A stretch of DNA of 64,000 nucleotides from Flavobacterium cyclinae (GTDB lineage Bacteria > Bacteroidota > Bacteroidia > Flavobacteriales > Flavobacteriaceae): assembly GCF_021172145.1 (NCBI RefSeq), contig NZ_CP089095.1:1860001-1924000 (forward strand), in the 5' to 3' direction. Each line of letters begins with the position of its first letter. Positions within the stretch are counted from its first letter, which is position 1. Made by a program: the position numbers and the translations under genes. The notes under the pieces are model-generated. The model saw only the letters and a list, made by a program, of their open reading frames with translations, had not been told where the DNA came from and ran no database searches. Positions 11,182 through 33,311 of the stretch are shown here, piece after piece.

Positions 11182-11212
11182 AAAATGCCTCAAATCTCTT
11201 TGAGGCATTTTC
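11182..11212. terminator. Bidirectional terminator after DUF2200
   Basis: The 13-bp stem AAAATGCCTCAAA / TTTGAGGCATTTT with a TCTC loop has T runs on both strands. It serves the nth-DUF2200 operon and the small minus-strand gene ending at 11214. Confidence 0.88.
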
Positions 11213-11213
11213 T

Positions 11214-11357
11214 TTAATTAGCGATGATTTCAAAATTAGAATTTCCCACTTTATGTATACTCAATGCTTTTGAATAATTAAGTATAAACGAAATCGTTTC
11301 TTTTTTAGGTTTCATTTTTTGAGTCACTAATTTACGTTTCGAGTAGAGTTTTGCCAT
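11214..11357 (-). CDS. Small basic conserved-looking protein (47 aa)
   Basis: This short gene runs from an ATG at 11357 to a TAA at 11214. The product begins MAKLYSKRKLVTQKMKPKKE and continues with a helix containing FILNYSKALSI. It is strongly basic, soluble and free of cysteines. The frame fills the space between the DUF2200 terminator and the sigma factor. Flavobacterial genomes often carry small basic proteins with a similar ETIxFxLNYSKAL core, which supports it as real. Function is unknown, and nucleic-acid or ribosome binding is only a guess from charge. Confidence 0.65.
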   Translation of the reverse strand: MAKLYSKRKLVTQKMKPKKETISFILNYSKALSIHKVGNSNFEIIAN

Positions 11358-11408
11358 ATATGTTATTAGTATTATTAATTCAATAACGACAAAAAAATAC
11401 TTTTAGTA

Positions 11409-11993: not shown

Positions 11994-12078
11994 AACAATA
12001 CCTTTTAGTTAATTTAAGATTCGGGTTCTAAAAAGTATTTTTATTGTATAGGCAATCGTTTTTATGAGATTAATAAGT

Positions 12079-12110
12079 CAAATTTAACATAAAATTTAAT
12101 TAAAAAACAA
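12079..12110 (-). promoter_or_regulatory. Promoter of the ECF sigma gene (TTG-N21-TAAATTTG)
   Basis: On the minus strand, TTG (12108-12110) and TAAATTTG (12079-12086) are separated by 21 bp, matching the Bacteroidota promoter pattern. The predicted leader before the ATG at 11993 is about 80 nt. Confidence 0.55.
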
Positions 12111-12155
12111 ATTTTAATTAAAAATTTAACACTTTGAATGCAATAAAAAAAGAAA

Positions 12156-12186
12156 AATGCTTACAAAATTGGAATCTGAAAGCATT
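12156..12186 (-). terminator. Probable terminator of the glucan operon
   Basis: On the minus strand, an AATGCTT / AAGCATT stem with a large loop is followed by a T-rich run (TTTCTTTTTTTATT). It lies just past the last gene of the laminarin locus. Confidence 0.55.
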
Positions 12187-12201
12187 ATGACTTGGAAGAA
12201 A

Positions 12202-13899: not shown

Positions 13900-13909
13900 G
13901 TGTTGATTT

Positions 13910-16299: not shown

Positions 16300-17787
16300 T
16301 TATTCTATCACCACTGTTTGCAAAGCTTTTGCAGGAATGGAAATTTCACTTTTGTTGTTATTTACCGTTATTTCAATTGAATGAGATTGTTCTGTAGGAT
16401 TAAAAATGACCAAAGCAATTGAGTTATCTGGATTTTGAACAGCGGTTGCTTTTAAATCATTATTATTGATTTCGCAACCTATTTTAACAGCACCTGGACG
16501 CATGAACTTACTAAAATGCGACATCACATAATACAATGGCGTGAAGTAAACCTCATCGTTTTTATCATCTACAATAACAGGAGCAACACACCAATTTTTG
16601 AACCAATTTGGGCCACCTTGTCTATCTAAAACCATGTTCCAATCTACCCAACCATCAACTTGGTTATTCAAACAACCGATAATGTCTTCTGCATAGCGAT
16701 TAACGGGAGCGTATTTTGGATGTAAATATTTATCTTGTTCACTTGCCCAATCCCAACCCCAATCGGTTGCTTCTTTTTTCCAATACCATGCGTCGTCTTG
16801 CCAATGTGGCATTTCTGAATCTACACAAGCTTCGGTTTGAATCAAATGTTTGTTTGGTGCTTTATTATGAGCATATTGTAAGGCTTCTGGGAAAACTTCA
16901 TACGTACTTTCGTACCAATGAATTGCTGTTCCTGCGAAGTATTTTGATGTATTTTCATCTTTATACATCGCATCTACCCATTCTTGTAGACCAGCTCTGT
17001 TTTGGTCGTAACCTAAAATTTTAATAGCATTCCAACCGTCTTTTTCTAATTTTGGTCCCAAATGATTTTGGACAAACAAAGTCATTTCTTCAGGTGAAAA
17101 TAATGTACTTTCCCAATTATTTCCATTGCCATGAGGTTCGTTAATAACAGTTAAACCCCAAATATCAATACCTTCTTTTTTGTAAGCTTCTAGATATTTT
17201 GAAAAATACAAAGCAAAAGTGTCGTTATATTCTGGCAGCAATTTTCCACCAACATAACTTTTGTTGTCTTTCATCCAAGGTGGACATGACCAAGGAGAAG
17301 CGATAATGTTAAATCCTTCTTTAGAAATTGCTTTTGCTTCTAAAATCATGGGAATAATATCGTCTTTATCGTCTTCGATAGTGAAATGTTCTAAGGCTAA
17401 GTCGTTTTCAACTTTAGCGTAAGTATAATTCTTTAGAGAGAAATCGCAAGAAGCTATAGTTGTTCTTGTTAGTGAGTAATTGGCACCATTTTCACTGAAG
17501 TAGGCCTCTAAAATTTTCTTTCTATTTTCTTTACTCAATTTATTCAATAAATGTGCAGAAGCTTCTGTAAAAGAACCTCCAAAACCAGTTATCGTTTGAA
17601 ATTTTTTTTCAGGAATAAGATGAATTTCAATTTTGTTTTCAGATGTAGAAAATTCATTTACTTTTTTCAAAGCATTCCCACTTTCAGAAGTTTCATAAAC
17701 CGTTACTTCTATCGCACTATCGACTCCTTTACAATTCATCATTGTTACAAGAATTAAAAAACTTACTATGTAATGAACAAACTTCAT
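16300..17787 (-). CDS. GH30 glucosidase/beta-1,6-glucanase lipoprotein
   Basis: The 495-aa protein has a lipoprotein signal (lipobox TMMNC, Cys19). The GH30 TIM barrel (about 60-430) contains FGGSFTEASAHLLNKL, ASPWSCPPWMK, acid/base Glu217 in TVINEPHGN and nucleophile Glu319 in LIQTEACVD. The C-terminal beta-sandwich typical of GH30 completes it. Bacterial GH30 enzymes in laminarin loci usually cut the beta-1,6-linked glucose side chains, which inferred context supports here. It begins 1 bp after the GH17 lipoprotein stop and precedes the symporter by 14 bp. Confidence 0.9.
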   Translation of the reverse strand: MKFVHYIVSFLILVTMMNCKGVDSAIEVTVYETSESGNALKKVNEFSTSENKIEIHLIPEKKFQTITGFGGSFTEASAHLLNKLSKENRKKILEAYFSENGANYSLTRTTIASCDFSLKNYTYAKVENDLALEHFTIEDDKDDIIPMILEAKAISKEGFNIIASPWSCPPWMKDNKSYVGGKLLPEYNDTFALYFSKYLEAYKKEGIDIWGLTVINEPHGNGNNWESTLFSPEEMTLFVQNHLGPKLEKDGWNAIKILGYDQNRAGLQEWVDAMYKDENTSKYFAGTAIHWYESTYEVFPEALQYAHNKAPNKHLIQTEACVDSEMPHWQDDAWYWKKEATDWGWDWASEQDKYLHPKYAPVNRYAEDIIGCLNNQVDGWVDWNMVLDRQGGPNWFKNWCVAPVIVDDKNDEVYFTPLYYVMSHFSKFMRPGAVKIGCEINNNDLKATAVQNPDNSIALVIFNPTEQSHSIEITVNNNKSEISIPAKALQTVVIE

Positions 17788-17788
17788 T

Positions 17789-19081
17789 TTATCCTTTTTT
17801 TGGTGGTGCTAAAACGGTTCTCATAACTAATTCTTTATTGCCTGAAAACGTTTTTTCAATTGGCTGCCCATTTCTTTTTAAATTGGTAAAAACCTTATCA
17901 TCTACTGAATTCCACAACGTGAACTTTGCTTTTCCATCAACCGTAAAAATCCCGAAATGATTTTCTGAACCCTTTGGATTTTGACTGTCTTTCCAAGGTT
18001 CGTCAAATGCTTCAAAATAGAAACATGTGATTTTCTCTTTATTTGTCCAAGCTCGCATACTTTGGTAATACAAAGCTTGTTTATATTCGTCTGAAGCTTT
18101 TGAACCTTCAATTCCGTAGAAGCCATCTGAACTAGAAGCCCAACCCGTTTCTCCAATATGAATAGGTTTGTTTGGACTAATAGTGTGCACATAAGCTTTT
18201 ACATTTTCATATTGTTTTTGAGCAAATAATTGTGCTCGAATCATTGCAGTTTCCACTTTTTGTAATTCATCAAAATGATTTTCATTACTTGACGTTTGCC
18301 AAAAATCAGGATTGTAATGCGTGTTGTGATACGGATACGTATGCATTGAAACATAATCAACCGCTTTTATGATTTCCTCTAAATCTTTAGTGTGATAACT
18401 TGTATCGCCTCCACCCCAAGAAGCAAAATCATCAGAACTAGTAATCCAAACCTGTTTCGGTAATTTATTTTGTTTTTTAAGATCTTGTAAATGGTTCACC
18501 CATTTTAAAATGATATTGGGTGTAACGTAATAACTGGTTGCCCAATTTACCATTGCCTCATTTCCAACAGCGATAATTTTTATAATTTCTGGATAGGCAT
18601 TTGTTAAACGAACTGCTTCAGCAATTTCAATGGCATTTCTATCGCTTTCTTCGTTATGAATGGGTTCTAAATTTGTCCAAGCGTTTTTACAATCTATCCA
18701 AGCTCCAAGCATAACATACATTTCGAAATTGGAATCTTCCCTTTTTAATTGGGTAATTGCTTCTAATAAATTCGAAACTTCTTTGTAATGAACATTGTAC
18801 GTTCTAACTATTTTGATATTTAATGCGGCTAAAATTTTTAAATCCTCTTTAATTTCAGCAATTGTAGGTTCAATTTCGCGTGTGTTTTTGCGATAACCGC
18901 CATAACAAATAGCTTGATAGTTGGGATTTCCTAATATTTGTTTAGCCGTTATTTCCATTGGTTTAGCATTCATTTCTTGGCTTTCTGATTTGGAATTACA
19001 TGAAAAAAGCAAACACAAACTTCCCATCAAAAGAAAAACTTTTGAAAATGATGAAATAGCTATGTTTGTTTTGATTTTCAT
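17789..19081 (-). CDS. GH17 beta-1,3-glucanase lipoprotein
   Basis: The 430-aa protein has a lipoprotein signal peptide (LLFSC, Cys28). The GH17 barrel has acid/base Glu175 in IAVGNEAMVNW and nucleophile Glu311 in IHIGETGWASS. It should sit in the periplasm or on the outer membrane and trim beta-1,3-glucan oligosaccharides. Compared with the cytoplasmic GH17 of the same locus, it has an N-terminal anchor and a longer loop region (about 215-270). It is 12 bp downstream of the phosphorylase gene and 1 bp upstream of GH30. Confidence 0.9.
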   Translation of the reverse strand: MKIKTNIAISSFSKVFLLMGSLCLLFSCNSKSESQEMNAKPMEITAKQILGNPNYQAICYGGYRKNTREIEPTIAEIKEDLKILAALNIKIVRTYNVHYKEVSNLLEAITQLKREDSNFEMYVMLGAWIDCKNAWTNLEPIHNEESDRNAIEIAEAVRLTNAYPEIIKIIAVGNEAMVNWATSYYVTPNIILKWVNHLQDLKKQNKLPKQVWITSSDDFASWGGGDTSYHTKDLEEIIKAVDYVSMHTYPYHNTHYNPDFWQTSSNENHFDELQKVETAMIRAQLFAQKQYENVKAYVHTISPNKPIHIGETGWASSSDGFYGIEGSKASDEYKQALYYQSMRAWTNKEKITCFYFEAFDEPWKDSQNPKGSENHFGIFTVDGKAKFTLWNSVDDKVFTNLKRNGQPIEKTFSGNKELVMRTVLAPPKKG

Positions 19082-19093: not shown

Positions 19094-22000
19094 TTATTTT
19101 AAATTGGTAGCAACTACACTTACAATTAGTTTCTCAATAATTCCTTTTCTGCCAAAGACATCTTGACTTGTTTTACCATCTAAAGATAATTGGTTCATTA
19201 TTTTTGAATTTCCTTGATTATCAAATATTTCGATAGAAGATGACTCTGACAATTGATATACAACAGGAATTTGACAGAATGTAAACGCCAATGAATTTTC
19301 TTTTAATTCAATCGTTTTGTGTTCGAAATGAACATTTACATAATTAAACGTTTTAGGTTGTGTTAAAAACTCATCTTTTCTTAATAAACACGGGTTAAAA
19401 TGTAAAACTCCATCTTTAATAAAAACACCTAGTTCACCAAAACGACTCAAAATATCTTCTTTTACTTGACCTGTCATTCCAGGTTGTTGTGCGCCTTTTC
19501 CTGCTGGTGTGTGCGAATAAGCATCGGTTGGGAAAGCACCGTAAAGTGTTGGCGATTTGTGAACGCCAATTCCTTCGTTTATTTCGTAATAGTGCTCTAA
19601 TAAACGTCCGATAACTTCTGGTGATTCGTTTTCTTCGATGGCTTTTAGGCAACATTCTTGAACGGCTAATTGTAGTTTTGAAACCATGTGCCAATAAATT
19701 GAACCTAAGCCTTCGTAACCATAAAATGTTCCTGAACGACCAGTAAATGCTTTATGATTGAATATTTCCTCAAAGATTTCTAAAACTACATTTTCTTCTT
19801 TTTCAACTAATGCTTTAAAAGTGGTATTTTGTTTTACTTCTGCTAAAGCATTTTTCAAATCGTTGGCATTGTGGAAGTTTCCGTTGAAATGATAATTTCC
19901 TAAAACATCTTGATTAATGATTTGAGCATTTTTATTCGCTAATAAATTTTGTAATAATTCCGATTTTGCAACCGCTTCTTTGGATATAGTATTTTTTTCG
20001 ATGAATTTTGGTAATTCTTTATTCGGATATAATAAATAACTGTATTGATCGTGTCTAAACAATTTACTTGTTTTTAATGCATCTAAAACTTTTAGATTTT
20101 CTTTTGATGACAAATAACCAGAACTCAAAACAGCCACTTGACCTTCTAACATTTCACTTAAATAAGAAATTGAAATTGAGTTGTTACTTTCAATCGTCAT
20201 TAAGTTGTAGGCATGATATAAATCATCAGCACGTTTGTTAACTTCAATAGAATGTTCGATAAATTTCAAACTAACTTTAGTGAAGTTTTTCAAACCTTGC
20301 ATAGAATGTGTTCTTTTTTTACCCCAAAATCCGCTGTTGTAAATTTGGTAACGGTAATCTGAAGCTGCTTTTCCTAATCGGTCTAATATTGCTTTTCTGG
20401 TAACATCGTCGATTTTACCTGAAAGTAGGTGTTCGTTTTCTAACAAACATTCTCTAACTTCATGATAGAATTCGACCATTTCATTAGAAATTTTGATGTT
20501 CTCTAAGTTCGAATTGTCTAATAATTGTTCGAAAAACTTCAAGAAACGTCTCAAATAATACAACGTAACCATCGAAACTCCGTTACCTACTAAAGCGTTG
20601 TTGGCGTCGTTCCATTCTGGTCGTTGTGTGTTCATCCAAATGCCGGCTTCTGGAATAAAGTTGGACATTTTAGATAAAACCGTAGCTAATATTTTTTCGA
20701 TGAAATTTACGTGATAAATGCTCTTATCGTTACTGTGTAACAAAGCACCATCCGCACCTAATTGTTGTTTTCTATCGTTGATTAATTTTTCCCAAGAATG
20801 ACTGTATTCAATAGTATCTTTTGGATTTTTTAGAATTTCATCATACGGTTTAATGATGTACGGAACAGCTGCATATACGAAACAATCGGTTTCAAAATAA
20901 TCGTTTAGTTTTCCTGGAGCATATTTTTCACAAAATTCTAAGAACTTCAACAAATAAATGATTTGGTGATCGCCCCAATATCCAATATATGACCAAGGAT
21001 TATCAGGTTCAATCGCTTCCCAATCGAAACCATCTTTGGTAACACGATATGGATTATACCCATCAAAAGTAGAAGCATTTAAGAATTTGTGAATCATATT
21101 ATCGATAAACTCTGGATACGAATGCGCTAGCGCTTCCCAATTTTGGAAAATATCACGCCAGTTACCTTGATAATCTAATATTTTAGAACCATCTATTTCA
21201 TTGGTAGTATTAATCGAAAACTTATTCCAAGGTCGGCTTGGATCACCGTGTCTTCTACTAAATTTTAAAGGTAAATATTCAAAACTTAAACGTTCAAAAT
21301 TTAAGTTGTTTTGTTTTTTTGCAAATTCTTTTAAGGATTGAAGCGAAAATATTTCAGGTAATTGTCCGATTTTATCTGCTAACAAACGATAGACTTCAGT
21401 ATTTGCTTTTTTAATGTATACTATAAAATCCTGTTTTTCAATATGGTAGTTGTAATCGAAAATTCCTCCACGCATAATATTGAAAAGCGTGTTTGAAAAG
21501 TGTCTTGTATCGCGAAGATGATCTTCGGTAGCTTGAAGTGCATCAGATGACGCATTGATTTCAATTAATTTTTGAGTACCAAGATTTATATCTTCTTTAA
21601 TTTGATATTCTAAAGTTCCATCATTAGAAATAGTTTCGATTAATTGAATGATGTCAGCATGATTTTGATTCACATTAGCAACAATCATCCAATTTTTATC
21701 TGAATTTTGATTTAAGTTAAAAGTTGTATTGATGAAATAAGCGCCTTTCTCTCCTTTGATATCCAATTCTGGAAGTACATTTTGATTTCTTCTGAAATTA
21801 GCAAGTTGTAGCGATGATAATAAATACGTTGGGTTATCAAATCCTAAAGAGAAAACCGTATTGGCTTTTAATGCTTCGCTTGGTTCGGCTTTATCAACGA
21901 TGATAGCACTTAAAGCGAAAATTCCTAATCCACTGTTTGGATGTAATTCACTTCTTTTATAAGCATCTACTAAGTTACTGGTTGATGCTTGTAAATCGCT

Positions 22001-22570
22001 ACTTACTCCGTGTGGCATGATGTTTTGAATTCCGTCTAAAACAGAAATTTGATAGGATTTATCGGAATAATTTTTAATGGAAGCTTGTTTTACAAATCCG
22101 AATTTATTACTTGAATTCCATTCGTAAGAAAAAGAAAGTTCTAAATCGTGATTGATTTCTTCGAATATAATTTTATTACCGTAAAAGTTTTTATATAAGT
22201 TTCTAGAAATGGAATACTTATCTGTAAAACGTTCAGAAAATGGTTCCCAAATTAATGTTTGGTTGTTGTACGAAACTTGAAAAATAGTTTTACTACCTGT
22301 AATTTCTGCAGATTCGGTAATTTTATCATCGGTGTAATATGGAAAAAGAGCAAACTCTGCATTTTTTCTTCCGGCAGTTAATCCGCCATTGCTTGAAATA
22401 AACATCCAGTGATTGGAATCGCTTACGATACTCATAAAAAATGGTCGCATGCAATCGCTATTGCTTATTTTATAAAATTGTTCACCGTTAAACGTTACGA
22501 CATCCATAGAAACCGATTTATTATTGTTTTCTAAAGCTACATTAACATTGTCTTTCATTCCTAAAATCAT
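19094..22570 (-). CDS. Cytoplasmic beta-1,3-glucan phosphorylase (GH149/GH94-like)
   Basis: The 1158-aa protein has no signal peptide. The N-terminal half is beta-sandwich in character (GGLTAGRKNAEFALFPYYTDD is typical of GH94-like phosphorylases). The (alpha/alpha)6 half contains SRPWNKF, DWEAIEPDNPWSYIGYWGDH, and PEWNDANNALVGNG, in which Asp655 is the expected general acid. The length matches GH149, whose known members reversibly phosphorolyse beta-1,3-glucan oligosaccharides to glucose 1-phosphate; GH94 enzymes are usually shorter. Family placement is from memory of motifs and size. The operon context (GH16, GH17, GH30, symporter) supports laminari-oligosaccharide phosphorolysis. An alternative start is the Met at 22558. 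Confidence 0.82.
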   Translation of the reverse strand: MILGMKDNVNVALENNNKSVSMDVVTFNGEQFYKISNSDCMRPFFMSIVSDSNHWMFISSNGGLTAGRKNAEFALFPYYTDDKITESAEITGSKTIFQVSYNNQTLIWEPFSERFTDKYSISRNLYKNFYGNKIIFEEINHDLELSFSYEWNSSNKFGFVKQASIKNYSDKSYQISVLDGIQNIMPHGVSSDLQASTSNLVDAYKRSELHPNSGLGIFALSAIIVDKAEPSEALKANTVFSLGFDNPTYLLSSLQLANFRRNQNVLPELDIKGEKGAYFINTTFNLNQNSDKNWMIVANVNQNHADIIQLIETISNDGTLEYQIKEDINLGTQKLIEINASSDALQATEDHLRDTRHFSNTLFNIMRGGIFDYNYHIEKQDFIVYIKKANTEVYRLLADKIGQLPEIFSLQSLKEFAKKQNNLNFERLSFEYLPLKFSRRHGDPSRPWNKFSINTTNEIDGSKILDYQGNWRDIFQNWEALAHSYPEFIDNMIHKFLNASTFDGYNPYRVTKDGFDWEAIEPDNPWSYIGYWGDHQIIYLLKFLEFCEKYAPGKLNDYFETDCFVYAAVPYIIKPYDEILKNPKDTIEYSHSWEKLINDRKQQLGADGALLHSNDKSIYHVNFIEKILATVLSKMSNFIPEAGIWMNTQRPEWNDANNALVGNGVSMVTLYYLRRFLKFFEQLLDNSNLENIKISNEMVEFYHEVRECLLENEHLLSGKIDDVTRKAILDRLGKAASDYRYQIYNSGFWGKKRTHSMQGLKNFTKVSLKFIEHSIEVNKRADDLYHAYNLMTIESNNSISISYLSEMLEGQVAVLSSGYLSSKENLKVLDALKTSKLFRHDQYSYLLYPNKELPKFIEKNTISKEAVAKSELLQNLLANKNAQIINQDVLGNYHFNGNFHNANDLKNALAEVKQNTTFKALVEKEENVVLEIFEEIFNHKAFTGRSGTFYGYEGLGSIYWHMVSKLQLAVQECCLKAIEENESPEVIGRLLEHYYEINEGIGVHKSPTLYGAFPTDAYSHTPAGKGAQQPGMTGQVKEDILSRFGELGVFIKDGVLHFNPCLLRKDEFLTQPKTFNYVNVHFEHKTIELKENSLAFTFCQIPVVYQLSESSSIEIFDNQGNSKIMNQLSLDGKTSQDVFGRKGIIEKLIVSVVATNLK

Positions 22571-22669: not shown

Positions 22670-23482
22670 TTATTGGTAAATTCTTACGTAATCCACTAAC
22701 ATTTCTTGTGGGAAAGTTGTTTCACTATTTGGTGATCCAGGTAAATTTCCACCCACAGCCATATTTAAAATGATGTAAAATGGTTTATTAAAAACCCATT
22801 CGCCAGGAACATCTTCTGGAGTAATTTGATTGTAAAGTTTATCATCTATATAATAATTGATGTAATCTTCACCCCATTCAATTCCAAAAATGTGGAAATC
22901 AGTATCAAAACGACTATTGGTTAAAGTGAAATTTTTAGAAATAGAAGCTCCTCCTGAATAACCAGGACCATGAACGGTACCAAAAGCAGTTATTGGATTA
23001 CTTCCTAAATACTCCATAATATCAATTTCACCACAGTTAGGCCAACCTACTTCGTCAATATCTTCACCTAACATCCAGAAAGCAGGCCATAAACCTTGTC
23101 CTAACGGACATTTGATTCTAGCCTCAATTCTACCATATTTTTGTTCTACTTTACCTTTAGTCAAAATTCTAGCTGAAGTGTAGTTCGATCCCATATATAA
23201 TTCTTGTCGAGCGGTAATTTTTAGCATTCCGTTTTCTACAACAATATTCTCAGGACGACTAGTGTAATACTGTGATTCATTATTTCCCCAGCCGTTATTA
23301 CCTGTACCAATATCATAACTCCAATAGGCACTATTTGGCGCACCATCTACATCAAATTCATCTTGCATTACTAAATTATTCATAGTAGTAACCGTTTGTT
23401 TTTCATCTGTAGAACATCCCATAATGGATACTATAACAGTAATTAATGCTAAAGACTTTATGGTTCTATATTTTATACTCAT
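22670..23482 (-). CDS. GH16 beta-1,3-glucanase lipoprotein
   Basis: The 270-aa protein is a compact single-domain GH16 enzyme with a lipoprotein signal (lipobox IMGC, Cys23). Catalytic residues are Glu152, Asp154 and Glu157 in GEIDIMEYLG. The substrate-cleft tryptophans in GLWPAFWMLGEDID and GNNGWGNNESQYY are those of laminarinase-type GH16. It should act at the cell surface or in the periplasm as an endo-beta-1,3-glucanase. It follows the glycan-binding lipoprotein by 33 bp and precedes a hairpin and the phosphorylase. Confidence 0.92.
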   Translation of the reverse strand: MSIKYRTIKSLALITVIVSIMGCSTDEKQTVTTMNNLVMQDEFDVDGAPNSAYWSYDIGTGNNGWGNNESQYYTSRPENIVVENGMLKITARQELYMGSNYTSARILTKGKVEQKYGRIEARIKCPLGQGLWPAFWMLGEDIDEVGWPNCGEIDIMEYLGSNPITAFGTVHGPGYSGGASISKNFTLTNSRFDTDFHIFGIEWGEDYINYYIDDKLYNQITPEDVPGEWVFNKPFYIILNMAVGGNLPGSPNSETTFPQEMLVDYVRIYQ

Positions 23483-23515: not shown

Positions 23516-24931
23516 CTAGTTGTAGAAATAAACGTTATCTACATAAATTACAGAACCATCACCGCCTTCAAGGATGATTTGCGCAAGATGAGATCTACTT
23601 GCAAGTCCAGGCATTGCTGAGAATGGAATATCAATTGACATCCAATTTTGTGACACCACAAAAGGAGCAGTAAAAGTTGTAGAATGTCTAGTATCATCAC
23701 CTCCACTATAAGCACCATTAGCTCCAAAATCAACAATAATAACTCTCAATTGTCTACCTGGTGCTATTGTTCCAGGAATGAATGCATCCATGTGAAAATG
23801 TGTCATAGTAGTTGCATCTACAGTAGGAGCACTAAATTCTATACCTACGAAATTGAAAATGGTATAATTTAAAATATTATCTCCATTTACCGAAAAATCG
23901 TTAGAAACTGTTGTTTGCCATGGTTGCCAATAACCATTGTAATAATTAACCGGTACATTATTATATGCATCTGAGAAAATTGAAATTACATTTGCTTGGC
24001 TCCTAGAAGGTGTTGGCGCATGAACAAAATTACCAGCGCAATTGATAGTTAAACTACCAGTTGCTTGAACACCATTCACAGTAGCAGTAATTACAGCAGT
24101 TCCTGCACTAAGAGAAGTAACCATTCCATTAGTATCCACTGTTGCAACAGATGGATTTGAAGATGAAAATTCGAAATAACCTGGGCTTAAACTTACTATT
24201 TGATTTTGACCACTAGGAAGATTGAAAGTAGAAATAATTCCAGTTACACTTGAGTTAACTCCAACAAACGTATTGATAGAAGCATTATTTCCATCCATTA
24301 TAGAAGCACTAATTGTTCTAATTGTTCCTAATTTTTCAAATTTTAAATCATCAATCCAAAAAGTGTATCCCATTCCATTTGTTCCTTGCGTTCCAGCTGC
24401 ATAACGAAACATACCTCTTTCTTGTACAAGCTTTGTTGGATCTGGGATTGGGATAATTACTTTAGTCCAATTCGTACCCACACTAACATTAGTAATGGTA
24501 GCCATGTATTTATTTGGATAAAAATCTTCACCAAAACCTAACTCAGCAATTGTAACTCCTTGAGAAGCTTTAATGTAAAAAGTTAAAGCATCAAAATCAG
24601 TTAAATTTCGACCTGCACCTTCGGTTCTAAATATAGCGCCAGCGTAATTTCCTTCTGGATCATTTGCATTTGGTACATCAAAACGTAAAGACACATTACT
24701 GTTATATCCTTCAGATCTATCAATTGACCAAGCGGTTGCTTTAGACCCTCCATAAGGAAAGTAAAAATCTGACCCCATTCCTACAAAATCATCGGTGAAG
24801 ATATTTCCAATTTTTGGAAAAGTAGCAACAGTAGCTTCATCAGATAATTCTCTCTCGCAACTTGTAATCATTGTTGTTACTGTTGCAAGAAGAAAAAATG
24901 CTTTTAAATAATTAAACTTACTATTTTTCAT
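23516..24931 (-). CDS. Surface glycan-binding lipoprotein with Ig-like and repeated C-terminal domain
   Basis: The 471-aa product read from 24931 (MKNSKFNYLKAFF) has a lipobox ITSC (Cys25). A longer frame to 25006 runs into the upstream gene and lacks a signal at its start. A beta-sandwich module (about 45-195) is followed by a BIG2-like Ig domain (about 215-290: VATVDTNGMVTSLSAGTAVI). The C-terminal domain (about 300-471) starts HAPTPSRSQANVISIFSDAY. That last domain is also found twice in the protein encoded at 31239-33311. No catalytic motif is visible. By position it plays the role of a SusE/F-type laminarin-binding protein. It lies 16 bp after the fusion gene. Confidence 0.8.
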   Translation of the reverse strand: MKNSKFNYLKAFFLLATVTTMITSCERELSDEATVATFPKIGNIFTDDFVGMGSDFYFPYGGSKATAWSIDRSEGYNSNVSLRFDVPNANDPEGNYAGAIFRTEGAGRNLTDFDALTFYIKASQGVTIAELGFGEDFYPNKYMATITNVSVGTNWTKVIIPIPDPTKLVQERGMFRYAAGTQGTNGMGYTFWIDDLKFEKLGTIRTISASIMDGNNASINTFVGVNSSVTGIISTFNLPSGQNQIVSLSPGYFEFSSSNPSVATVDTNGMVTSLSAGTAVITATVNGVQATGSLTINCAGNFVHAPTPSRSQANVISIFSDAYNNVPVNYYNGYWQPWQTTVSNDFSVNGDNILNYTIFNFVGIEFSAPTVDATTMTHFHMDAFIPGTIAPGRQLRVIIVDFGANGAYSGGDDTRHSTTFTAPFVVSQNWMSIDIPFSAMPGLASRSHLAQIILEGGDGSVIYVDNVYFYN

Positions 24932-24947: not shown

Positions 24948-27900
24948 TTATTTACCAATATTAATGTGAATATATGTTCTGATTTCCCACTCTGAACCAT
25001 TACCAAAACCTACCGGACTTAATACTGGTACTGGAGGATAAGTGTTTTCAGGAACATATGTTGGTGAATATCTTGGAGAATATTGATCTAAAGATCTCCA
25101 AATACCCATGATTCCTATACGTGTATCAGGTAAGATGAACCAGCTTGGTTTTCCTACAGATGTAGAAATATCAATTGAACTTTGAACAGGATAAGTCAAG
25201 TTAAAATCGCGGTGGTAGTCAAATGGTCCCCAATCGTTGAATTTCAAAGAAGAAACTACTTTAACTTTTTTGTAAATCATTCTAACATCTCCCCCTGCTC
25301 TATTAATAGTTCTTTGAGAGTCACCGTTAGCTTGTCCATTTCCAAAATATAAGTTAGCAATAAAACCTAAATCAGGAGAAATTTTTGAAACAATTCTTGT
25401 GTTTGATTCCCATAAATCTTTTGCTGGAGCAGAACGTTCAAACGCAAATTGGGTTCTATTTGATAAAAATCCGATGGCAGCATCCATTGTTGTTGGTAAA
25501 TGACGATAAACAAATCCTGTACTGATAGCAAATTTTGCATCTTCCACCATATCATTGTTCCATTCGTACATCCAAGTTCCAGGTGTTGGATCATACGTTA
25601 ATAATAACTCTCCTCCTACTGTTTCACGGTTAGCTCTTACAATAAATGGATCATCTAAAATATTTCTTAATCTACCTGGTGCATCAACTCCGTTTGGCAT
25701 AGCATCAACTAGAGGCTTTTGCCATAAGAAGTTTGGAGCAATTTGTAAATTTGAATTCACATTATAAGTAAAACCAGCTAAGAAGTTCATTTGGTTTCCA
25801 CTTCCGCTATCTTTTAATCTCCAACCCGTAAATGTTTGAGTATAATCGCCACCACCATTAGCAACTAATCCTTGAATAGCTCCCTGTGTGTATGCATTGA
25901 ATCTTCCTTTTGAGAAAGTTAATTTTGCTTTTCCTCCCCAATTGTCTTTGTTGTTAATTTTATCTACTTTAACTACATCACCATCCATCATTTGGAATTC
26001 TCTTCCGTTTAAAGGTTGTCCTCCCCAAATACCCCCAACTTCAACACCTAAATTTCCTAATTTAGTTTGGAAATAAACGGTTGCTCTTCTTGTTTTTGGT
26101 TGTGGAATAAAAATAGATGTATTGGCTTGAGCAGCACTTGAAACGTCTTCATGATAAACTGCTGCTGCATTAACTTTTCCAATTTTTGTGTTGTATTTTA
26201 ATAAGTATGCTGGGTTAGCTCCCCACCATAATTGCGGACCAAAAGCAGCTTTTAATCCGTCTAAACTTCCTCTACCATCAATTTCAAAACCTAGAGTTTC
26301 TCCGTTGTAGATATCTAAATTAGGTCCGTAATTAGCCTCAGGATACAATCCGAAGAAATCACCTTCATAACCCCAATGATAATGACCTGTTCTGTAAAAA
26401 CCTCTTAATTCAAAATCTTTAGCAGTCCATTTATAAGACGCATTATAAATTTGAACTCTATTAACATCAGTTGTTGTAACTTCGCCTTCGTCAGTTACAA
26501 TATTTTGAGCTCTACCTCTATTCTCGTAGAAAATTTCGTTTATTGGATTTTCAGCAACATGACCTAAGATATTAAAATTCACATTTGCTTTCATATTTGC
26601 AGAAGGATTTCCTTCTACACCAATAAAATAAGATTGCATGTGGTCAAAACCTAATCGATTTGGATAGGTATTCGTATTTGGATCATCAGCCTCTGGAGTA
26701 GTTAGTAAACTTCCACCTGTGTTAAAAGTTGTAAACTCTGCTCTTAGGTTACTTAATTTTATAATTCCACCATCATTTGCAGCTAAAGCAGCTTTATCAC
26801 CACGTGCTCTCAAGGTAGCATCCATTAAATTAGTTTCATTAAAGTGACTAGAAATAACTTGATTACTAACACCTTCTTTAAATGGATTTAATTTGTGAAT
26901 GTCTTTTAATACATAATATGCAGCTCTTGGATATAATTGATAATGCCCTTTTTCGTTTGTTGGCCCTTTAGCACATATACCAAACCACTCTTCGTTCATG
27001 TTATTTTGACCTTCAGTATAATCTTTTTGATATCCTCCGTTTGACCATGAAGCATTAGAATCATGTAAATCTAAATTTTTAGTTTGACCGTATTTCCACC
27101 AACCGTCACTAAATTGAAAAGTATAACCTCCAATAGCATTTCCAGTTTTACCTAAACCTGCAGCATTTTCATAAATTTCTTTCCAATTACCTTTCAAATA
27201 GAAAGCTTGTGCATTTTGATCTTCTTGATTCGTTTGAACATTGAAAGCATCAGCACCAAACTCTGTAAATAATACTGGTTTTCCGTATTCTTTTTTAACT
27301 CTTTCAAATAAATCTCCAAAAGAAACCCCACGATAAACGTTAGTACCAAAAACATCTACATCTTTACATTCTTTAGCAATAATATCAAGGAAAAGTAAAT
27401 CTCCATTACAAATTGCAATTGGATGATTTGAATCGATTGCTTTCATTGCAACTGTAGCTTCATTAAAAAGTTTATACATTGAGTATGCACGAACTGTTGA
27501 TTTTCTATCTTCAATAGGAATATCTTCTGTTTCCGCACCATCCCAAAATAGTCCGTAATTATTTTCATTTCCTAGTAGGAATAATAATAATCCTTTAGTG
27601 TCTTTATATTCTGAAGCAAGTTCTGTAACTTCCTTTAAAAGTAATTCACGAGTTTTAGGATCTGAATATTCAGTATTAGGTTTCCATACACCATCTATAG
27701 TAAGTCCATATCTACCAAAAGAATGATTTAACATGGTATAAATACCATAATTCTCATATATGTATTCAATCCATTTTTTTGGAATACCTGAATAAACACG
27801 TATCGAGTTAACCCCCATGTTTTGAAGTAATCCCATTTCGTCATCTAAAGCTTGACGTATAAAATCATCTGATTGATTCCATAGACTGTAGGAATAGTTA

Positions 27901-28064
27901 GTTCCAATAGGAAAATAATCCCAGTTCATTCCGTTAATCATAAAATCTTTTCCTCCGACTTTAAGTTTCATACCAGAATCGCTATTCTCAATTACTACTT
28001 TCTCTGTTTGAGCATACATAGTAAAAGAATAACATAAGATTAATGACAAAATAATTTTTCTCAT
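24948..28064 (-). CDS. Glycoside hydrolase (clan GH-A, GH2-like TIM barrel) fused to predicted outer-membrane beta-barrel
   Basis: The 1038-aa protein has a signal peptide ending near YAQ (residue 19). Residues about 30-400 form a TIM-barrel hydrolase: INGMNWDYFPIG, GVNSIRVYSGIPKKW, a probable acid/base Glu in LLFLLGNENNYG and a probable nucleophile Glu in PVLFTEFGADAF. From about 430 to the end the sequence changes to alternating-residue strands, aromatic ends and glycine-rich turns (AAFGPQLWWGANPAYLLKY, VYFQTKLGNLGVEVGGIWGG, EIRTYIHINIGK), as in outer-membrane porins. I infer a single polypeptide with a surface or periplasmic enzyme joined to a barrel. It is the first gene of the operon, in the position where susC/susD would be expected. 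The exact GH family is not certain. Confidence 0.78.
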   Translation of the reverse strand: MRKIILSLILCYSFTMYAQTEKVVIENSDSGMKLKVGGKDFMINGMNWDYFPIGTNYSYSLWNQSDDFIRQALDDEMGLLQNMGVNSIRVYSGIPKKWIEYIYENYGIYTMLNHSFGRYGLTIDGVWKPNTEYSDPKTRELLLKEVTELASEYKDTKGLLLFLLGNENNYGLFWDGAETEDIPIEDRKSTVRAYSMYKLFNEATVAMKAIDSNHPIAICNGDLLFLDIIAKECKDVDVFGTNVYRGVSFGDLFERVKKEYGKPVLFTEFGADAFNVQTNQEDQNAQAFYLKGNWKEIYENAAGLGKTGNAIGGYTFQFSDGWWKYGQTKNLDLHDSNASWSNGGYQKDYTEGQNNMNEEWFGICAKGPTNEKGHYQLYPRAAYYVLKDIHKLNPFKEGVSNQVISSHFNETNLMDATLRARGDKAALAANDGGIIKLSNLRAEFTTFNTGGSLLTTPEADDPNTNTYPNRLGFDHMQSYFIGVEGNPSANMKANVNFNILGHVAENPINEIFYENRGRAQNIVTDEGEVTTTDVNRVQIYNASYKWTAKDFELRGFYRTGHYHWGYEGDFFGLYPEANYGPNLDIYNGETLGFEIDGRGSLDGLKAAFGPQLWWGANPAYLLKYNTKIGKVNAAAVYHEDVSSAAQANTSIFIPQPKTRRATVYFQTKLGNLGVEVGGIWGGQPLNGREFQMMDGDVVKVDKINNKDNWGGKAKLTFSKGRFNAYTQGAIQGLVANGGGDYTQTFTGWRLKDSGSGNQMNFLAGFTYNVNSNLQIAPNFLWQKPLVDAMPNGVDAPGRLRNILDDPFIVRANRETVGGELLLTYDPTPGTWMYEWNNDMVEDAKFAISTGFVYRHLPTTMDAAIGFLSNRTQFAFERSAPAKDLWESNTRIVSKISPDLGFIANLYFGNGQANGDSQRTINRAGGDVRMIYKKVKVVSSLKFNDWGPFDYHRDFNLTYPVQSSIDISTSVGKPSWFILPDTRIGIMGIWRSLDQYSPRYSPTYVPENTYPPVPVLSPVGFGNGSEWEIRTYIHINIGK

Positions 28065-28286: not shown

Positions 28287-28319
28287 TGTTGAGGTGTTGT
28301 ATAGGTATTTTTAAGGTAT
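28287..28319. promoter_or_regulatory. Three 11-bp imperfect direct repeats upstream of the glucan operon
   Basis: TGTTGAGGTGT, TGTATAGGTAT and TTTTAAGGTAT follow each other without gaps, one helical turn apart. They lie about 225-255 bp upstream of the first operon gene and next to the regulator stop codon. A similar TGTATAG pair lies upstream of 33311. They are candidate regulator-binding sites. An ACCTCAACA at 28163-28171 is the inverse of TGTTGAGGT. The remaining leader (28065-28286) is AT-rich, with no clear TAnnTTTG box. Confidence 0.4.
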
Positions 28320-31129
28320 TAAATTGATAATAAATACTCCACTAGACCTGTTTCATGCGGAAGATTCATTTTTTTACGCAAACGATATCGTTTTATCTCA
28401 ATACTTCTTACTGAAATATTAAGAAGCGGAGCAATTTCTTTAGAGGATAAATTCAATCTTAAATAGGCACAAAGCCTCAAATCATTAGGCGTTAAAGTTG
28501 GATGATTTTCTTTAACTTTCTTCAAGAAATTGTTATCGGCACTATCAAATGCTTCTTTAAAAATATTCCAAGTATTTTCTTCTTTTACATTCTTATTAAT
28601 AGTTGAAATTACCGATTTAATACTTCGATTTGTTGAACTATCTGTTGAGTTTTTTAAATCGGCTTTAATGATGTTGAGTAGCTCTGTTTTTTTAATCAAA
28701 TTCATATTGGTTACCGCCAACTCTTTGTTTTTCTTATCAACATCTTGAGCTAATTGCTCATTTTTAATTTTCATTATCTGTTGTTCGTTCTCCAACTCCT
28801 TAAGCTCTAGAAGCATATTATTTTCAGCAATTATCTTTTGATGTCTTTTCTCATGATAAATGGTGTAAAATTTATGAATATAAAATGCTAAAATGATTAA
28901 CAGAATAAAATAAATAAACATCGCAAAATTATTCGCATACCAAGGCTTATTAATTTCAAAAGAATAGGTTGCAATGTTGTCTGTCATAGAATTTGCTACT
29001 TTAGCTCGAACACTAAACAGATAGTTACCAGATGGTAAATTTTCAAAAAATACTTGTGAATTAAAAGACCAATCGCTCCATTCTTCATGCAAACCTTCTA
29101 ATTTATATTGGTACTCAGCATTGATATACTTATCATATTCTGGTACAGCAAAGTAAAATGCTAGATTATTATCATCATAATCAAAACTACCTTCTTCTTG
29201 AATAGAAACATTAGTAGATTTTTCATTAATTGAATTATTTGTAATCCCAAAAATGGAAACTTTATAATTATTAAATTTAAAATCGTTATTTTTTAAAATA
29301 TAAAAACCATCTGTTGTTCCTATAAGATAATTATCGTCTTCTAATTGAAGAATATTTTCATATCCAGGCATCGAATTTGTCAACGAAGATGGTATTGGTA
29401 AACTATTTCTTTTTAAATCAGGAGTCAGTTTTCCTGCTGAATAGTAATAAATATAATGCTTTGTAAAAAACCAAAGTTTGTTAGATTTATCCACTATCAT
29501 CTTTCCTGTTACATATTCATCATTTTGAAACATTGAACTTAACGATGAATCTAAATCAAATGATTTAGTTTTGTTATTCATTTTAAATACACCTGCTTTA
29601 GAAGCATAATAAATATGATCATTATATTTAATTAAAGAGGCATTTTTACCTTTTTCAGGATTTTTATATTTGAAAATATTGGAAGCAGATGTTAATTGTG
29701 AATCAATTGTAAAACGGTAAACACCTTTGTACTCATGACTTACAAATACTTCTTTTGAATTTAAAATTTCAAAATGTTTAGAGGAATAATTAAATCCGTT
29801 GATTTTGTTCCTAAAAACCCAGTTATTATTTTTTTTCTCTAAAACCGAGATACCATTATAATTTCCTTGTAATATAAGATTACTAGAAACTGTTGAAGGA
29901 ACAAATTTCCATGTACCAGAAGCGGAGTAAATTAAATTTGCTACCCCATCATTCACTATAAAAGTTCCAGAATCATGTCCGCAAAAAAGTGTGTTTTGAT
30001 AAGAAAATAAATTCCAAACCTGACCTTTAGTATTTTTTACAAATTCAAACTTAGCAGAAGAAAATAAATCTTTACAAAACAACCCTTGATTTGTACCAAT
30101 ATATAACTTATTGTTATGTGTTATAGAAGTATAAATTGTACCTAAAATCCCCGTATTATCTAAATAATTTTTAATTGGTGATTTTATATTTAAACAATTT
30201 ATTCCATTATCTAACCCTATCCACAAATTTTTATCTAAATCTTCAAAAAGTGAAAGCGCTGTATTATTACTTAAACCTGAATTTTGTGTAATATGATATA
30301 TTAAATTTCCTTCCTTAGATAAAATAAATACTCCATTAGAAATAGAGCCCAAAGCAATACTTTGATCCGATAGAATTTGACAACTGTATATGTTACTTTG
30401 TTCTATTTCAGCATCAATATTTGTGAAAAATTTAGATAAAATTCCGTTTTGATATTTAAAAATTCCTTTCTTTTGAGTTACTAGTAGCAAACCATTATTG
30501 GTATCAAAAATTGTAATGATTTTATTTTGATTGATAATTTCGTTGTTTAAAAATAGTTTGCTTTTTCCTTGATCAATTTCATATAACCCTTTATTTGTTT
30601 GGAAATATATGGTATTAACTGTTTGAAAAGCTTTTAAAATTGTACTATTTGGATTTATGATAGTGAACAATTTTGTTTTAGTATTATAAGCATAAATTTT
30701 CTCTAATGATTGAAAAAGAATCCAATTATCAAAAGGAAATATACCCCAAAACTGTTCATCATCATTAATTTTATCTTTAATGGCATGGCTTAATGAAGTG
30801 TAAACCAACTGACCGTTTTCGGCTCTTTTCCAAAAACCAAATTCCATGAAGGAACCTGTATAAACAACATCATTAATACATTTTACAGATCGAATAATAG
30901 TTTCATTTGGAGAAGGATATAGAATCCATTTTGAACCATTAAATTCAAGTAATCCTTCATTATTTGCAAAATACATAAAACGATGATTATCTTGTGAAAT
31001 CATCCAATTCTGAATACCCGCTTTATAATCTTCTTTTGAGTATTTTACAATAGGAGGCAACTGCTGTGCTAATCCAAACAAAGAAAATAAAGCTAAAAAG
31101 AGCTTGAAAATTGTTTTTGAAAATTGCAT
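28319..31129 (-). CDS. Membrane-tethered LuxR-type regulator with Reg_prop/Y_Y_Y sensor
   Basis: The 936-aa protein has a signal peptide (about 1-21). A large periplasmic sensor of beta-propeller repeats follows (about 30-640; repeated WIG, LFEDLDKNLWIGLDNGI), then a Y_Y_Y domain (about 655-725; YQYKLEGLHEEWSDW). It has one membrane helix (about 735-753), a long cytoplasmic coiled coil (about 755-835) and a LuxR-type helix-turn-helix (about 876-936; LRLNLSSKEIAPLLNISVRSIE). There is no kinase or receiver domain. It therefore resembles a one-component relative of hybrid two-component glycan sensors. Its position suggests it senses glucan oligosaccharides and controls both flanking transcription units. 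Confidence 0.88.
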   Translation of the reverse strand: MQFSKTIFKLFLALFSLFGLAQQLPPIVKYSKEDYKAGIQNWMISQDNHRFMYFANNEGLLEFNGSKWILYPSPNETIIRSVKCINDVVYTGSFMEFGFWKRAENGQLVYTSLSHAIKDKINDDEQFWGIFPFDNWILFQSLEKIYAYNTKTKLFTIINPNSTILKAFQTVNTIYFQTNKGLYEIDQGKSKLFLNNEIINQNKIITIFDTNNGLLLVTQKKGIFKYQNGILSKFFTNIDAEIEQSNIYSCQILSDQSIALGSISNGVFILSKEGNLIYHITQNSGLSNNTALSLFEDLDKNLWIGLDNGINCLNIKSPIKNYLDNTGILGTIYTSITHNNKLYIGTNQGLFCKDLFSSAKFEFVKNTKGQVWNLFSYQNTLFCGHDSGTFIVNDGVANLIYSASGTWKFVPSTVSSNLILQGNYNGISVLEKKNNNWVFRNKINGFNYSSKHFEILNSKEVFVSHEYKGVYRFTIDSQLTSASNIFKYKNPEKGKNASLIKYNDHIYYASKAGVFKMNNKTKSFDLDSSLSSMFQNDEYVTGKMIVDKSNKLWFFTKHYIYYYSAGKLTPDLKRNSLPIPSSLTNSMPGYENILQLEDDNYLIGTTDGFYILKNNDFKFNNYKVSIFGITNNSINEKSTNVSIQEEGSFDYDDNNLAFYFAVPEYDKYINAEYQYKLEGLHEEWSDWSFNSQVFFENLPSGNYLFSVRAKVANSMTDNIATYSFEINKPWYANNFAMFIYFILLIILAFYIHKFYTIYHEKRHQKIIAENNMLLELKELENEQQIMKIKNEQLAQDVDKKNKELAVTNMNLIKKTELLNIIKADLKNSTDSSTNRSIKSVISTINKNVKEENTWNIFKEAFDSADNNFLKKVKENHPTLTPNDLRLCAYLRLNLSSKEIAPLLNISVRSIEIKRYRLRKKMNLPHETGLVEYLLSI

Positions 31130-31238: not shown

Positions 31239-33311
31239 TTATTCTTTTATAAACTTAGTTGAAGAAACATTTCCGTCAATCATAGTTTTAATAACATAGA
31301 TACCTGAATTCAAGCTTGAAACATCTAAACTAATTGAAGTACCTTCTGTTTGTTTGTTCATTACTTCTTGTCCTAAAACATTATAAACTGCTATGTTTTG
31401 AATAACTCCATTAGCTTCTATATTTAAAATATTTGAAGTAGGATTAGGATATAATTTTACTTTAGTTGTTGCAAAGCTATCATTAGATAATACAGTATTT
31501 TTATGTAAATAAATATTGTCAACATAAACTGATCCTAAATTTGATGTAATCAAAAATTGATATAATGCTTCTCTACTTTGTGCTCCTGCAAAAGATGTTA
31601 AAGGCACATCAATAGAAACCCATGAACCAGTTGTAGTTGGTAAATGCGTTAACAATAAAGCTGAAGTTTCACCAGCTTGACCTGCATGATTTGACCATTT
31701 AGGATTTAATACTTTTCCAACTAAATCAGTTCCTGCATCGATATAATAATCCATATGAAAATGAGTCATTGAAGTTGCATCTTCATAATTTGCTAATTGA
31801 ACACCTAAGAAGTTTCCAAAATTAATTTTCTTCATAGCATTACCAGATAATGTTATATCTTGAATGTTTGAATCATCCCAAGAGGTTGACCATTCTGATA
31901 CTGGAACATTAGTGTAAGCATCACTAAATAAAGAAATAACATCAGAAGTTGCTCTGTTTGGTGGTGTTGGTGCATTTGTAGATGGACCAGTTAAAACAAA
32001 ATTAACAGTGTAAATACTTGTTTCTAAACCATTAGCTGAAGTTACTGTAATTGTAGCTGAACCTGGTAAAGTTGAAGCTTGTGAAATAATATATGAAGCA
32101 GATGCATTTGTAGTCGTAACACTAGTGATTTGAGGTACAACTGTAGTTCCTGTTAATAATTCATAATTATAGGTTTGAATTGTAGAACCAAATCCTGGAA
32201 TAGTTGAACCATCTACTTGAAGGTCACTCAATGTTGCATCAGCAGTAGGATCTACAGAATTTTTCCAAAAATAAATATTATCAAAATAAAAATCTGCTGG
32301 AACAGAACTACCAGGACCATTTGCAGCAAATTTCATTTGATAAACATTAGTCCAAGTCATTCCTGTAAACGCTGACTTAGGAATATCTACACTATACCAT
32401 TGTCCTTGAACGTGGTTAATTGTTACTAAAAACTCAGAAGCACCACCTGCATTACTAATTGGACTTACTTGTAGTATAGTATTTGCAGGATTTGCATTAG
32501 ACCAAACATCTACATGCAAGTATTCCATTGCTGATAAATTAGTACCTGTTAATTCTGTACCTTGATAATTAAAATTTGTATATGCTAATATATTGTTACC
32601 AGAAGTTACAGTAAAATTAGGATTTACAGAACCACTTTGACCCCAGTTTGGATTTAGATTAGTTGCTATACTAGTGTAAGAATCACTAAAAACAGAAACT
32701 ACATTAGCTTGTAAATGTGTAGGTGTTGGTGCATTTGTTGTTGGCACTGATGTAGAACATGGAGCACATGTACCTCCACAATCAATTCCCGTTTCAGTTC
32801 CATCTTGAATACCATTAGAACAAGTATTAACAACTTCAACTACAGATACATTATCAATAAAAACATATCCAACAGCTGCTCCCATATCAAAAATAACTCT
32901 GTCTGTCACAGTATTACCATAATTAATAGTAATATCATAAGAAAAAGTTTGAGGAGTTGAAGTTAATGTTGGCGTATAAGTTAAAGCGGCATAAGGAGCA
33001 TTATTTTGACCTAAACCAGCAATAATTGTTCTTGAACCTGTAATAAGGTCAGTGTATGCATCAAAAGTAAATCTATATGTTTTACCATCTTCTAATACAA
33101 CATCTTGACTTAAATTAACGTCCCAAGGATTACCAGCGGCACCAATGTTAGCTTCGTTTACAAAGTTACCTCCGCCTAAATCTACTACATTCGCAGCATT
33201 GTTGTACCAAGGAGCTGCAGATCCCGTTTGAAAATCACCATTAGTTACTAGATTTTGAGCAAAACCTAATGAAGCGGTAATTAATGTTAACAAAAAAGTA
33301 ATTTTTTTCAT
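31239..33311 (-). CDS. Secreted multi-domain carbohydrate-binding protein with T9SS sorting domain
   Basis: The 690-aa protein has a signal peptide (about 1-18) and a CBM4/9-like beta-sandwich (about 20-155; NLVTNGDFQTGSAAPWYNN). A Cys-rich linker (about 163-185; DGTETGIDCGGTCAPC) leads to a first copy of the VVSVFSDSY domain (about 190-350). Then come a cadherin-like sandwich (about 355-440), a second copy (about 445-615; VISLFSDAYTNVPV) and a T9SS type A sorting domain (about 625-690; LYPNPTSNILNI). No catalytic residues are seen. It is expected on the surface or released, binding beta-glucan. It is transcribed alone, upstream of the regulator. Confidence 0.85.
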   Translation of the reverse strand: MKKITFLLTLITASLGFAQNLVTNGDFQTGSAAPWYNNAANVVDLGGGNFVNEANIGAAGNPWDVNLSQDVVLEDGKTYRFTFDAYTDLITGSRTIIAGLGQNNAPYAALTYTPTLTSTPQTFSYDITINYGNTVTDRVIFDMGAAVGYVFIDNVSVVEVVNTCSNGIQDGTETGIDCGGTCAPCSTSVPTTNAPTPTHLQANVVSVFSDSYTSIATNLNPNWGQSGSVNPNFTVTSGNNILAYTNFNYQGTELTGTNLSAMEYLHVDVWSNANPANTILQVSPISNAGGASEFLVTINHVQGQWYSVDIPKSAFTGMTWTNVYQMKFAANGPGSSVPADFYFDNIYFWKNSVDPTADATLSDLQVDGSTIPGFGSTIQTYNYELLTGTTVVPQITSVTTTNASASYIISQASTLPGSATITVTSANGLETSIYTVNFVLTGPSTNAPTPPNRATSDVISLFSDAYTNVPVSEWSTSWDDSNIQDITLSGNAMKKINFGNFLGVQLANYEDATSMTHFHMDYYIDAGTDLVGKVLNPKWSNHAGQAGETSALLLTHLPTTTGSWVSIDVPLTSFAGAQSREALYQFLITSNLGSVYVDNIYLHKNTVLSNDSFATTKVKLYPNPTSNILNIEANGVIQNIAVYNVLGQEVMNKQTEGTSISLDVSSLNSGIYVIKTMIDGNVSSTKFIKE

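Follow-up and report, generated by a model that had tools for sequence, protein, structure and literature searches.

A clan GH-A glycosidase fused to a predicted outer-membrane barrel in Bacteroidota: a candidate channel for laminarin oligosaccharides

How might the products of laminarin breakdown cross the outer membrane when the genes around the enzymes include no SusC/SusD pair? Uptake of laminarin in Bacteroidota is generally attributed to SusCD. The question is raised by a beta-1,3-glucan gene set of Flavobacterium cyclinae, which lies within a stretch of 64,000 nucleotides of contig NZ_CP089095.1 (positions 1,860,001 to 1,924,000 of the forward strand), referred to here as the window. 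One gene of this set encodes a protein of 1038 amino acids (P0001) in which a glycoside hydrolase (GH) of clan GH-A is joined to a predicted outer-membrane beta-barrel. We lean towards reading this fusion as a TonB-independent, enzyme-coupled outer-membrane channel for laminarin oligosaccharides, with a surface lipoprotein as its partner. Within the gene set no outer-membrane conduit other than the barrel is seen, and a channel combined with trimming is therefore proposed as the most likely mechanism.

The open reading frame (ORF) that a first-pass annotation had noted here is intact and belongs to the minus strand; plus frame 1 over the same interval is full of stop codons. Relatives of the protein are 56-92% identical to it across nearly the whole length, so the fusion is not due to chance, and an assembly artefact or a one-off fusion is rejected on the same grounds. 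A lipobox, as defined by a home-made rule, is present in only five of 115 fusions.

The N-terminal half contains both LLGNENNYG and LFTEFGADAF, the motifs from which a TIM barrel of clan GH-A had been proposed, and the proposal is borne out. In the AlphaFold model, with secondary structure assigned by DSSP, this half consists of eight alternating strands and helices, the (beta/alpha)8 fold of the clan, and the first strand begins at about residue 43. N166 and E167 follow the strand formed by residues 159-164 and E268 lies in the strand 264-270. This is the layout described for clan GH-A and BuGH158, where the acid/base glutamate after beta4 is preceded by asparagine and the nucleophile follows beta7 (PMC7157763), and the three residues are placed as N136-E137 and E220 of BuGH158. 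They are invariant in all 50 aligned sequences, the window protein included.

The best Foldseek matches of the TIM half are laminarinases of GH158 (1.5e-12) and GH157 (3.6e-11), and GH2 is also matched. A profile of the enzyme family finds 6pal (BuGH158) in the PDB at E 2.1e-6 and 9oro at E 2.9e-4, while the window sequence alone reaches E 0.13 with phmmer. The GH2 TIM-barrel model PF02836 matches 31 of 35 aligned members (best 7.2e-12), the window protein not being among them, and a GH72 glucanosyltransferase model matches 12 of the 35 (best 1.8e-5); for the window fusion itself, neither Pfam nor NCBIfam gives a match at E up to 0.1. The endo-beta-1,3-glucanases of GH158 and GH157 (BuGH158, 6pal; LaGH157, 9fz9 and 9g5g) resemble the fusion in clan GH-A fold, catalytic layout and laminarin context, but their sequences are barely related to it. 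BuGH158 carries a C-terminal Ig-like domain (PMC7157763), whereas none is seen in the model of the fusion, where a helix and membrane strands take its place. GH2 TIM barrel is the database label of one relative (WP_022275059.1), yet the N-terminal sandwich and Ig-like domains of GH2 are absent from the modelled fusion. The enzyme half is filed under clan GH-A, in neither GH158 nor GH2.

The C-terminal half forms about 24 long strands in two predictions (counted by eye from the DSSP assignment of one model), and not the 14 to 18 that had been anticipated. The models of the two halves thus predict an enzyme and an outer-membrane-type barrel in one chain, as first suggested. In a Foldseek search with the barrel alone, 49 of the best 50 of 869 PDB matches (E up to 10) are outer-membrane barrels by title and the remaining one, 4q35, is titled only 'membrane protein' (best E 1.2e-10). 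By a home-made score for amphipathic strands (dyad score), the barrel reaches a z of 4.1. Six TonB-receptor controls range from 1.4 to 3.4 and nine other window proteins from -1.9 to 1.3, and the enzyme half scores -1.1. The odd-numbered connections are long, with a median of 27 residues; the even-numbered are short, with a median of 2, apart from two of 21 and 10 residues. An even number of amphipathic antiparallel strands with short turns on one side and long loops on the other, as expected of an outer-membrane beta-barrel, is therefore predicted. A soluble beta-sandwich is rejected on the amphipathic score, the barrel-only model and the Foldseek neighbours.

The barrel has no sequence match in the PDB, and that of the window protein has neither a useful Pfam or NCBIfam match nor a curated family. 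No TonB-receptor plug or carboxypeptidase-like extension is matched in the window fusion by Pfam or NCBIfam, and 34 barrel members give only weak TonB-receptor matches, to TIGR01786 in four (best 0.0087) and TIGR01785 in one (0.012).

In outer-membrane barrels the side with the short turns and the termini is usually periplasmic. Both termini of this barrel are on the short-turn side in the model, so the enzyme attached at its N-terminus should be periplasmic, which we regard as the most likely location. Conservation is higher at pore-facing than at lipid-facing positions (0.80 versus 0.66), with faces assigned by eye from the DSSP of one model, and here it counts against the channel that this assignment is built to select whichever face is more hydrophobic. 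Among the twelve long loops, s5-s6, s7-s8, s13-s14 and s21-s22 are conserved at 0.94, 0.95, 0.89 and 0.95, and the other eight at 0.53-0.74; long loops of outer-membrane proteins are usually variable. The modelled pattern of pore face and loops suits a path for substrate better than a mere anchor.

Going by sequence matches, the fusion is a widespread family of Bacteroidota. Relatives are present in 11 of 60 near genomes and, at E 0.001, in 40 of 296 genomes across the phylum, some by weak partial matches. With separate profiles for enzyme and barrel, a strong match to the enzyme (E below 1e-170) is found in 43 of 395 Bacteroidota genomes and a match to the barrel in 35 of them, each of these tallies including the window's own genome. 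All 35 have the barrel either joined to the enzyme domain or immediately beside it, leaving no stand-alone barrel family among them; one extra piece of 99 amino acids, in genome G261, presumably comes from the end of a fusion gene that has been split. Among 593 pattern-matched contig stretches at least 591 are related, of which the best-scoring 80 were used as loci; these were not drawn at random, and some may also be among our numbered genomes. In a Bacteroides finegoldii record (L181, NZ_OY725931.1) the fusion stands together with GH16, GH3 and the lipoprotein (451 bits), and the incomplete gene table of the record has no SusCD annotated within 12 kb. This record is labelled a plasmid but carries genes for valine-tRNA ligase and rpsA, and therefore looks chromosomal. 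Another contig, titled as a Bifidobacterium breve metagenome-assembled genome (L035), has the fusion in a Flavobacterium-like gene set and is probably a mislabelled bin.

The most constant companion of the fusion is a lipoprotein with a carbohydrate-binding module (CBM). Of 115 fused genes, 111 have a homologue as the next gene, no more than 55 bp away (median 16); three of the other four meet a contig end and the fourth, L162, has the homologue upstream. By contrast, BLAST finds it in none of the 11 loci in which the enzyme occurs without the barrel (GH-only loci; three are truncated, broken or retain a remnant of the barrel). In one of these, L135, a hidden Markov model (HMM) of the lipoprotein cross-matches a glycan-binding protein next to SusD at 150.8 bits. 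A tree of 58 enzyme domains calls for six changes in the presence of the barrel, and in all six independent pairs the lipoprotein changes in the same way (sign test p 0.031). This paired test covers 57 rows, with the short GH-only loci L175 and L177 left out, L162 set by hand to lipoprotein present and one row at a contig end not counted for the lipoprotein. The changes are read as losses because the GH-only rows are nested among fused ones in this quick, midpoint-rooted tree. At L176 (genome G176) and L177 (genome G291) the enzyme either precedes a cut-off barrel remnant or is itself broken into adjacent fragments, as if the barrel had recently been lost.

An acidic start after the lipobox is a surface export signal of lipoproteins. 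By home-made rules for lipobox and acidic signal, 100 of 108 partner lipoproteins with a lipobox have the surface-type signal, as do all 14 SusD proteins, which serve as internal control, and 87 of 104 GH16 proteins; the figures for GH17 and GH30 are 10 of 73 and 13 of 49. No lipobox is present in any of 95 GH149 proteins. The first-pass annotation had envisaged a single-protein device for cutting and import. Enzyme and barrel do share one chain, but since the CBM lipoprotein is a near-constant partner the device is probably not made of a single protein.

The absence of SusC and SusD from the gene set holds: the window has no PF00593 or SusD match and no SusC over the cut-off. Weak matches to the TonB-plug/SusC-like model TIGR04056 (E 1.0e-11 and 3.1e-5, below cut-off) occur on the plus strand at 45343-45928, as scraps at and past the end of ORF 44662-45555. 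The rest of the genome has three SusD and three SusC that pass the cut-off, none of them within 300 kb of the window. Read by eye from their neighbours, the three pairs make up one starch/maltose-like locus and two with peptidase-like genes, and are not laminarin loci. Of 36 genomes with the enzyme gene (G030 without the barrel), five have no PF07980 SusD among the matches listed. Three of them with the fusion (G050, G124 and G311, 98-100% complete) have no SusC over cut-off and no SusD among the matches listed, the SusD families searched being PF07980, PF12771 and PF14322. G109 has no SusD but a single SusC that barely exceeds the cut-off, while in G201 there is one SusC along with one SusD of family PF12771.

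Several observations weigh against a channel that stands in for SusCD. The models are mediocre, with a predicted local distance difference test (pLDDT) of 75.2 and a predicted template modelling score (pTM) of 0.53 at full length, and 73.8 and 0.70 for the barrel alone. Template modelling scores (TM-scores) of the barrel among the matches listed do not exceed 0.37 by query and 0.42 by target, so no listed PDB neighbour clearly has the same fold. A closed barrel and a pore are presumed from these models. SusC and SusD, called with home-made HMMs, are present in 13 of 115 fused loci (12 of the 89 with full flanks), and in G038 a SusD lies 11 kb upstream of the fusion, just beyond the stretch counted; the barrel is thus not simply a SusCD substitute. 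SusCD is near only three of the 11 GH-only loci (two of the five whose flanks are complete). Barrel and SusCD therefore do not alternate cleanly, and a tree test of their exchange is null. In GH-only loci without SusCD, either the enzyme dispenses with both or another porin serves. A strict exchange of SusCD for the barrel has no support from the locus counts or the tree. What survives of the suggestion that the fusion acts in place of SusCD is that the pairs of its own genome lie elsewhere and that three genomes have the fusion and no detected pair; as a rule it fails at the 13 loci that hold both. L135 (G030, positions 1-14000), in the same genus, has the order SusC, SusD, CBM, GH16, then a barrel-less enzyme of 422 amino acids and GH149, and no lipoprotein after the enzyme. 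It is a telling case: a single genus offers both arrangements for a natural comparison.

The fusion could instead be an auxiliary porin for small products or another solute, while laminarin oligosaccharides enter through a TonB receptor encoded elsewhere. The fused loci with SusCD in the sampled DNA would fit this, as would the 14 PF00593 TonB-receptor matches of the genome. The three fusion genomes without a detected SusC/SusD pair speak against it, although weaker matches to the SusC model remain there, as other TonB receptors would give; so do the lack of a PF00593 match in the window and a partner lipoprotein that is SusD-like in place and signal. We consider an auxiliary role unlikely.

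Surface display is likewise improbable; the barrel would then keep the GH domain on the cell surface, as an anchor or as a self-translocator, and have no part in import. The order of passenger, helix and barrel is autotransporter-like, the helix 401-432 preceding strand 1. The translocator domain of autotransporters has 12 strands, however, against about 24 here, and the window barrel has no Pfam match; a classical type V autotransporter is rejected on these grounds. The GH-only relatives mostly lack a surface-type signal (one of six with a lipobox passes, and some of the six are probably not lipoproteins), pore-facing positions are the more conserved, and display leaves the lipoprotein partner unexplained. 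That the GH domain has lost or weakened its hydrolysis and acts as a sugar-binding gate of the channel would suit its distance from characterised GH-A families in the single-sequence search, but is made very improbable by the invariant catalytic residues and by the unfused enzyme standing directly before GH149 in seven of 11 GH-only loci.

The surroundings of the fusion agree with use of beta-1,3-glucan. On the minus strand the gene order is CBM4 protein with a tail for the type IX secretion system (T9SS), regulator, fusion, CBM lipoprotein, GH16, GH149, GH17, GH30, a major facilitator superfamily (MFS) transporter, GH17 and GH16 (Table 1), and the beta-1,3-glucan gene set that had been recognised here is confirmed from the CBM lipoprotein onwards. 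The fusion is separated from the upstream regulator gene by 254 bp and, from this gap, plausibly starts the enzyme operon as its first gene. A hairpin followed by Ts at 31218-31191, between the CBM4 gene and the regulator, suggests that the latter does not begin the same unit as the CBM4 gene, although terminator-like sites are at chance number in all (7 versus 7.2 expected). A promoter scan is likewise at chance level (103 found, 101.2 expected). A regulator-like gene is present in 64 of the 80 related loci. Three more distant fused loci (L165, L167 and L169) have a putative ROK/MarR-like regulator of 415-423 amino acids, named by eye, between lipoprotein and GH16, and no Y_Y_Y regulator is labelled within the DNA sampled there.

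Table 1. Features of the fusion gene and of its neighbours in the window.
Feature	Positions	Strand	Basis or remark
GH-A glycosidase/outer-membrane beta-barrel fusion, 1038 aa (P0001)	24948..28064	minus	ORF, alignment, model
Presumed signal peptide, residues 1-19, ends ...MYAQ, no lipobox	28008..28064	minus	read by eye
Clan GH-A TIM barrel and cap, residues 20-394	26883..28007	minus	model DSSP, Foldseek, profile match
N166-E167, presumed acid/base after strand beta4 (159-164)	27564..27569	minus	alignment, model
E268, presumed nucleophile in strand beta7 (264-270)	27261..27263	minus	alignment, model
Helical linker, residues 401-432	26769..26864	minus	model DSSP, confidence partly low
Predicted outer-membrane barrel, residues 435-1037, about 24 strands	24954..26762	minus	models, amphipathic score
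CBM4/T9SS-tail protein	31239..33311	minus	
Upstream regulator, Y_Y_Y domain, LuxR-type helix-turn-helix match just under its cut-off	28319..31129	minus	
Partner CBM/Big_2 lipoprotein, 471 aa, C-ERELSDE start, surface-type signal	23516..24931	minus	16 bp past fusion
GH16 lipoprotein, C-STDEK start, surface-type signal, likely surface endo-laminarinase	22670..23482	minus	
GH149 1,3-beta-glucan phosphorylase, without lipobox or evident signal peptide (cytoplasmic)	19094..22570	minus	NCBIfam equivalog, 1813 bits
GH17 lipoprotein, periplasmic-type signal	17789..19081	minus	
GH30 lipoprotein, periplasmic-type signal	16300..17787	minus	PF02055, 6e-77
MFS sugar transporter (inner membrane)	14846..16285	minus	PF13347, 4.9e-67
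GH17 without evident signal peptide	13910..14830	minus	PF00332, 9.2e-15
GH16 with T9SS sorting tail (secreted)	12202..13899	minus	

In the channel that we favour, the surface GH16 lipoprotein would make the first cut in laminarin, and the surface CBM lipoprotein would capture the pieces and pass them to the barrel. Because no plug domain was found, oligosaccharides are proposed to cross the barrel without TonB energy. The GH-A domain, most likely periplasmic, would trim the sugar after entry, the first cut being left to the separate surface GH16; tethered at the periplasmic side, it may cut oligosaccharides as they emerge and so keep their diffusion one-way, like a ratchet. GH17 and GH30 would complete the degradation in the periplasm, and the MFS protein would import the products for phosphorolysis by GH149 in the cytoplasm. 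Sequence and comparison establish the architecture, the invariant catalytic residues, the gene set and the pairing of barrel and lipoprotein; folds, compartments and topology are predictions, and catalysis, pore, transport and ratchet are inferred.

This arrangement has likenesses to several known systems. Like SusC/SusD, it pairs a large outer-membrane barrel with an adjacent surface-type glycan-binding lipoprotein in a polysaccharide utilisation locus (PUL); it differs in having no plug or SusC match, a barrel of about 24 predicted strands without curated family, a CBM/Big_2 partner and a fused catalytic domain. BtuB-BtuG and XusA-XusB, which are Foldseek neighbours of the barrel, also combine a barrel with a surface lipoprotein, but they are TonB-dependent and without enzyme, and the TM-scores in these rows do not exceed 0.34. 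TonB receptors of the BtuB/XusA type have 22 strands. In laminarin PULs of Formosa an MFS-GH17 fusion joins a laminarin enzyme to a transporter, for which a coupling of cutting and uptake is proposed in PMC6246565, but its transporter consists of inner-membrane MFS helices and not an outer-membrane barrel.

The gene has probably been met before under another name. Laminarin PULs of Muricauda are described as clusters of GH2, GH16, GH149, GH17, GH30 and MFS, with the 'GH2' listed as a beta-glycosidase (PMC13188888), and this 'GH2' is probably the fusion gene; the words 'porin' and 'outer membrane' occur nowhere in the main text of that paper, and 'porin' is absent from the main texts of PMC11345257 and PMC6298971. 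'GH0', 'laminarin' and 'susCD' occur together in PMC10108472 and PMC10811738. The former describes 'variant 1' laminarin PULs with a 'GH0', conceivably a member of this family, and one PUL without susCD. In the portions available of the literature on enzyme-porin fusions and laminarin PULs, no description of the barrel was found. Where SusCD serves as the marker of a PUL, loci lacking it are classed as CAZyme clusters (as defined in PMC10108472), so that those with the fusion may escape notice.

More tentatively, the fusion may represent a categorically new kind of nutrient importer. Its barrel, with about 24 strands and of a family met only in company with a glycosidase, would form a TonB-independent channel served by a surface CBM lipoprotein of its own, and hydrolysis in the periplasm, where the pore opens, would give the uptake of laminarin oligosaccharides its direction. 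Such an importer would be widespread in Bacteroidota, including genomes without a detected SusC/SusD pair and the Bacteroides record. In the sea, laminarin is one of the major sources of energy (PMC13188888). If the fusion is a conduit, a second, TonB-independent route for laminarin exists, and the coupling of enzyme and channel in the outer membrane becomes directly testable, with the Bacteroides relative as a possibly tractable host.

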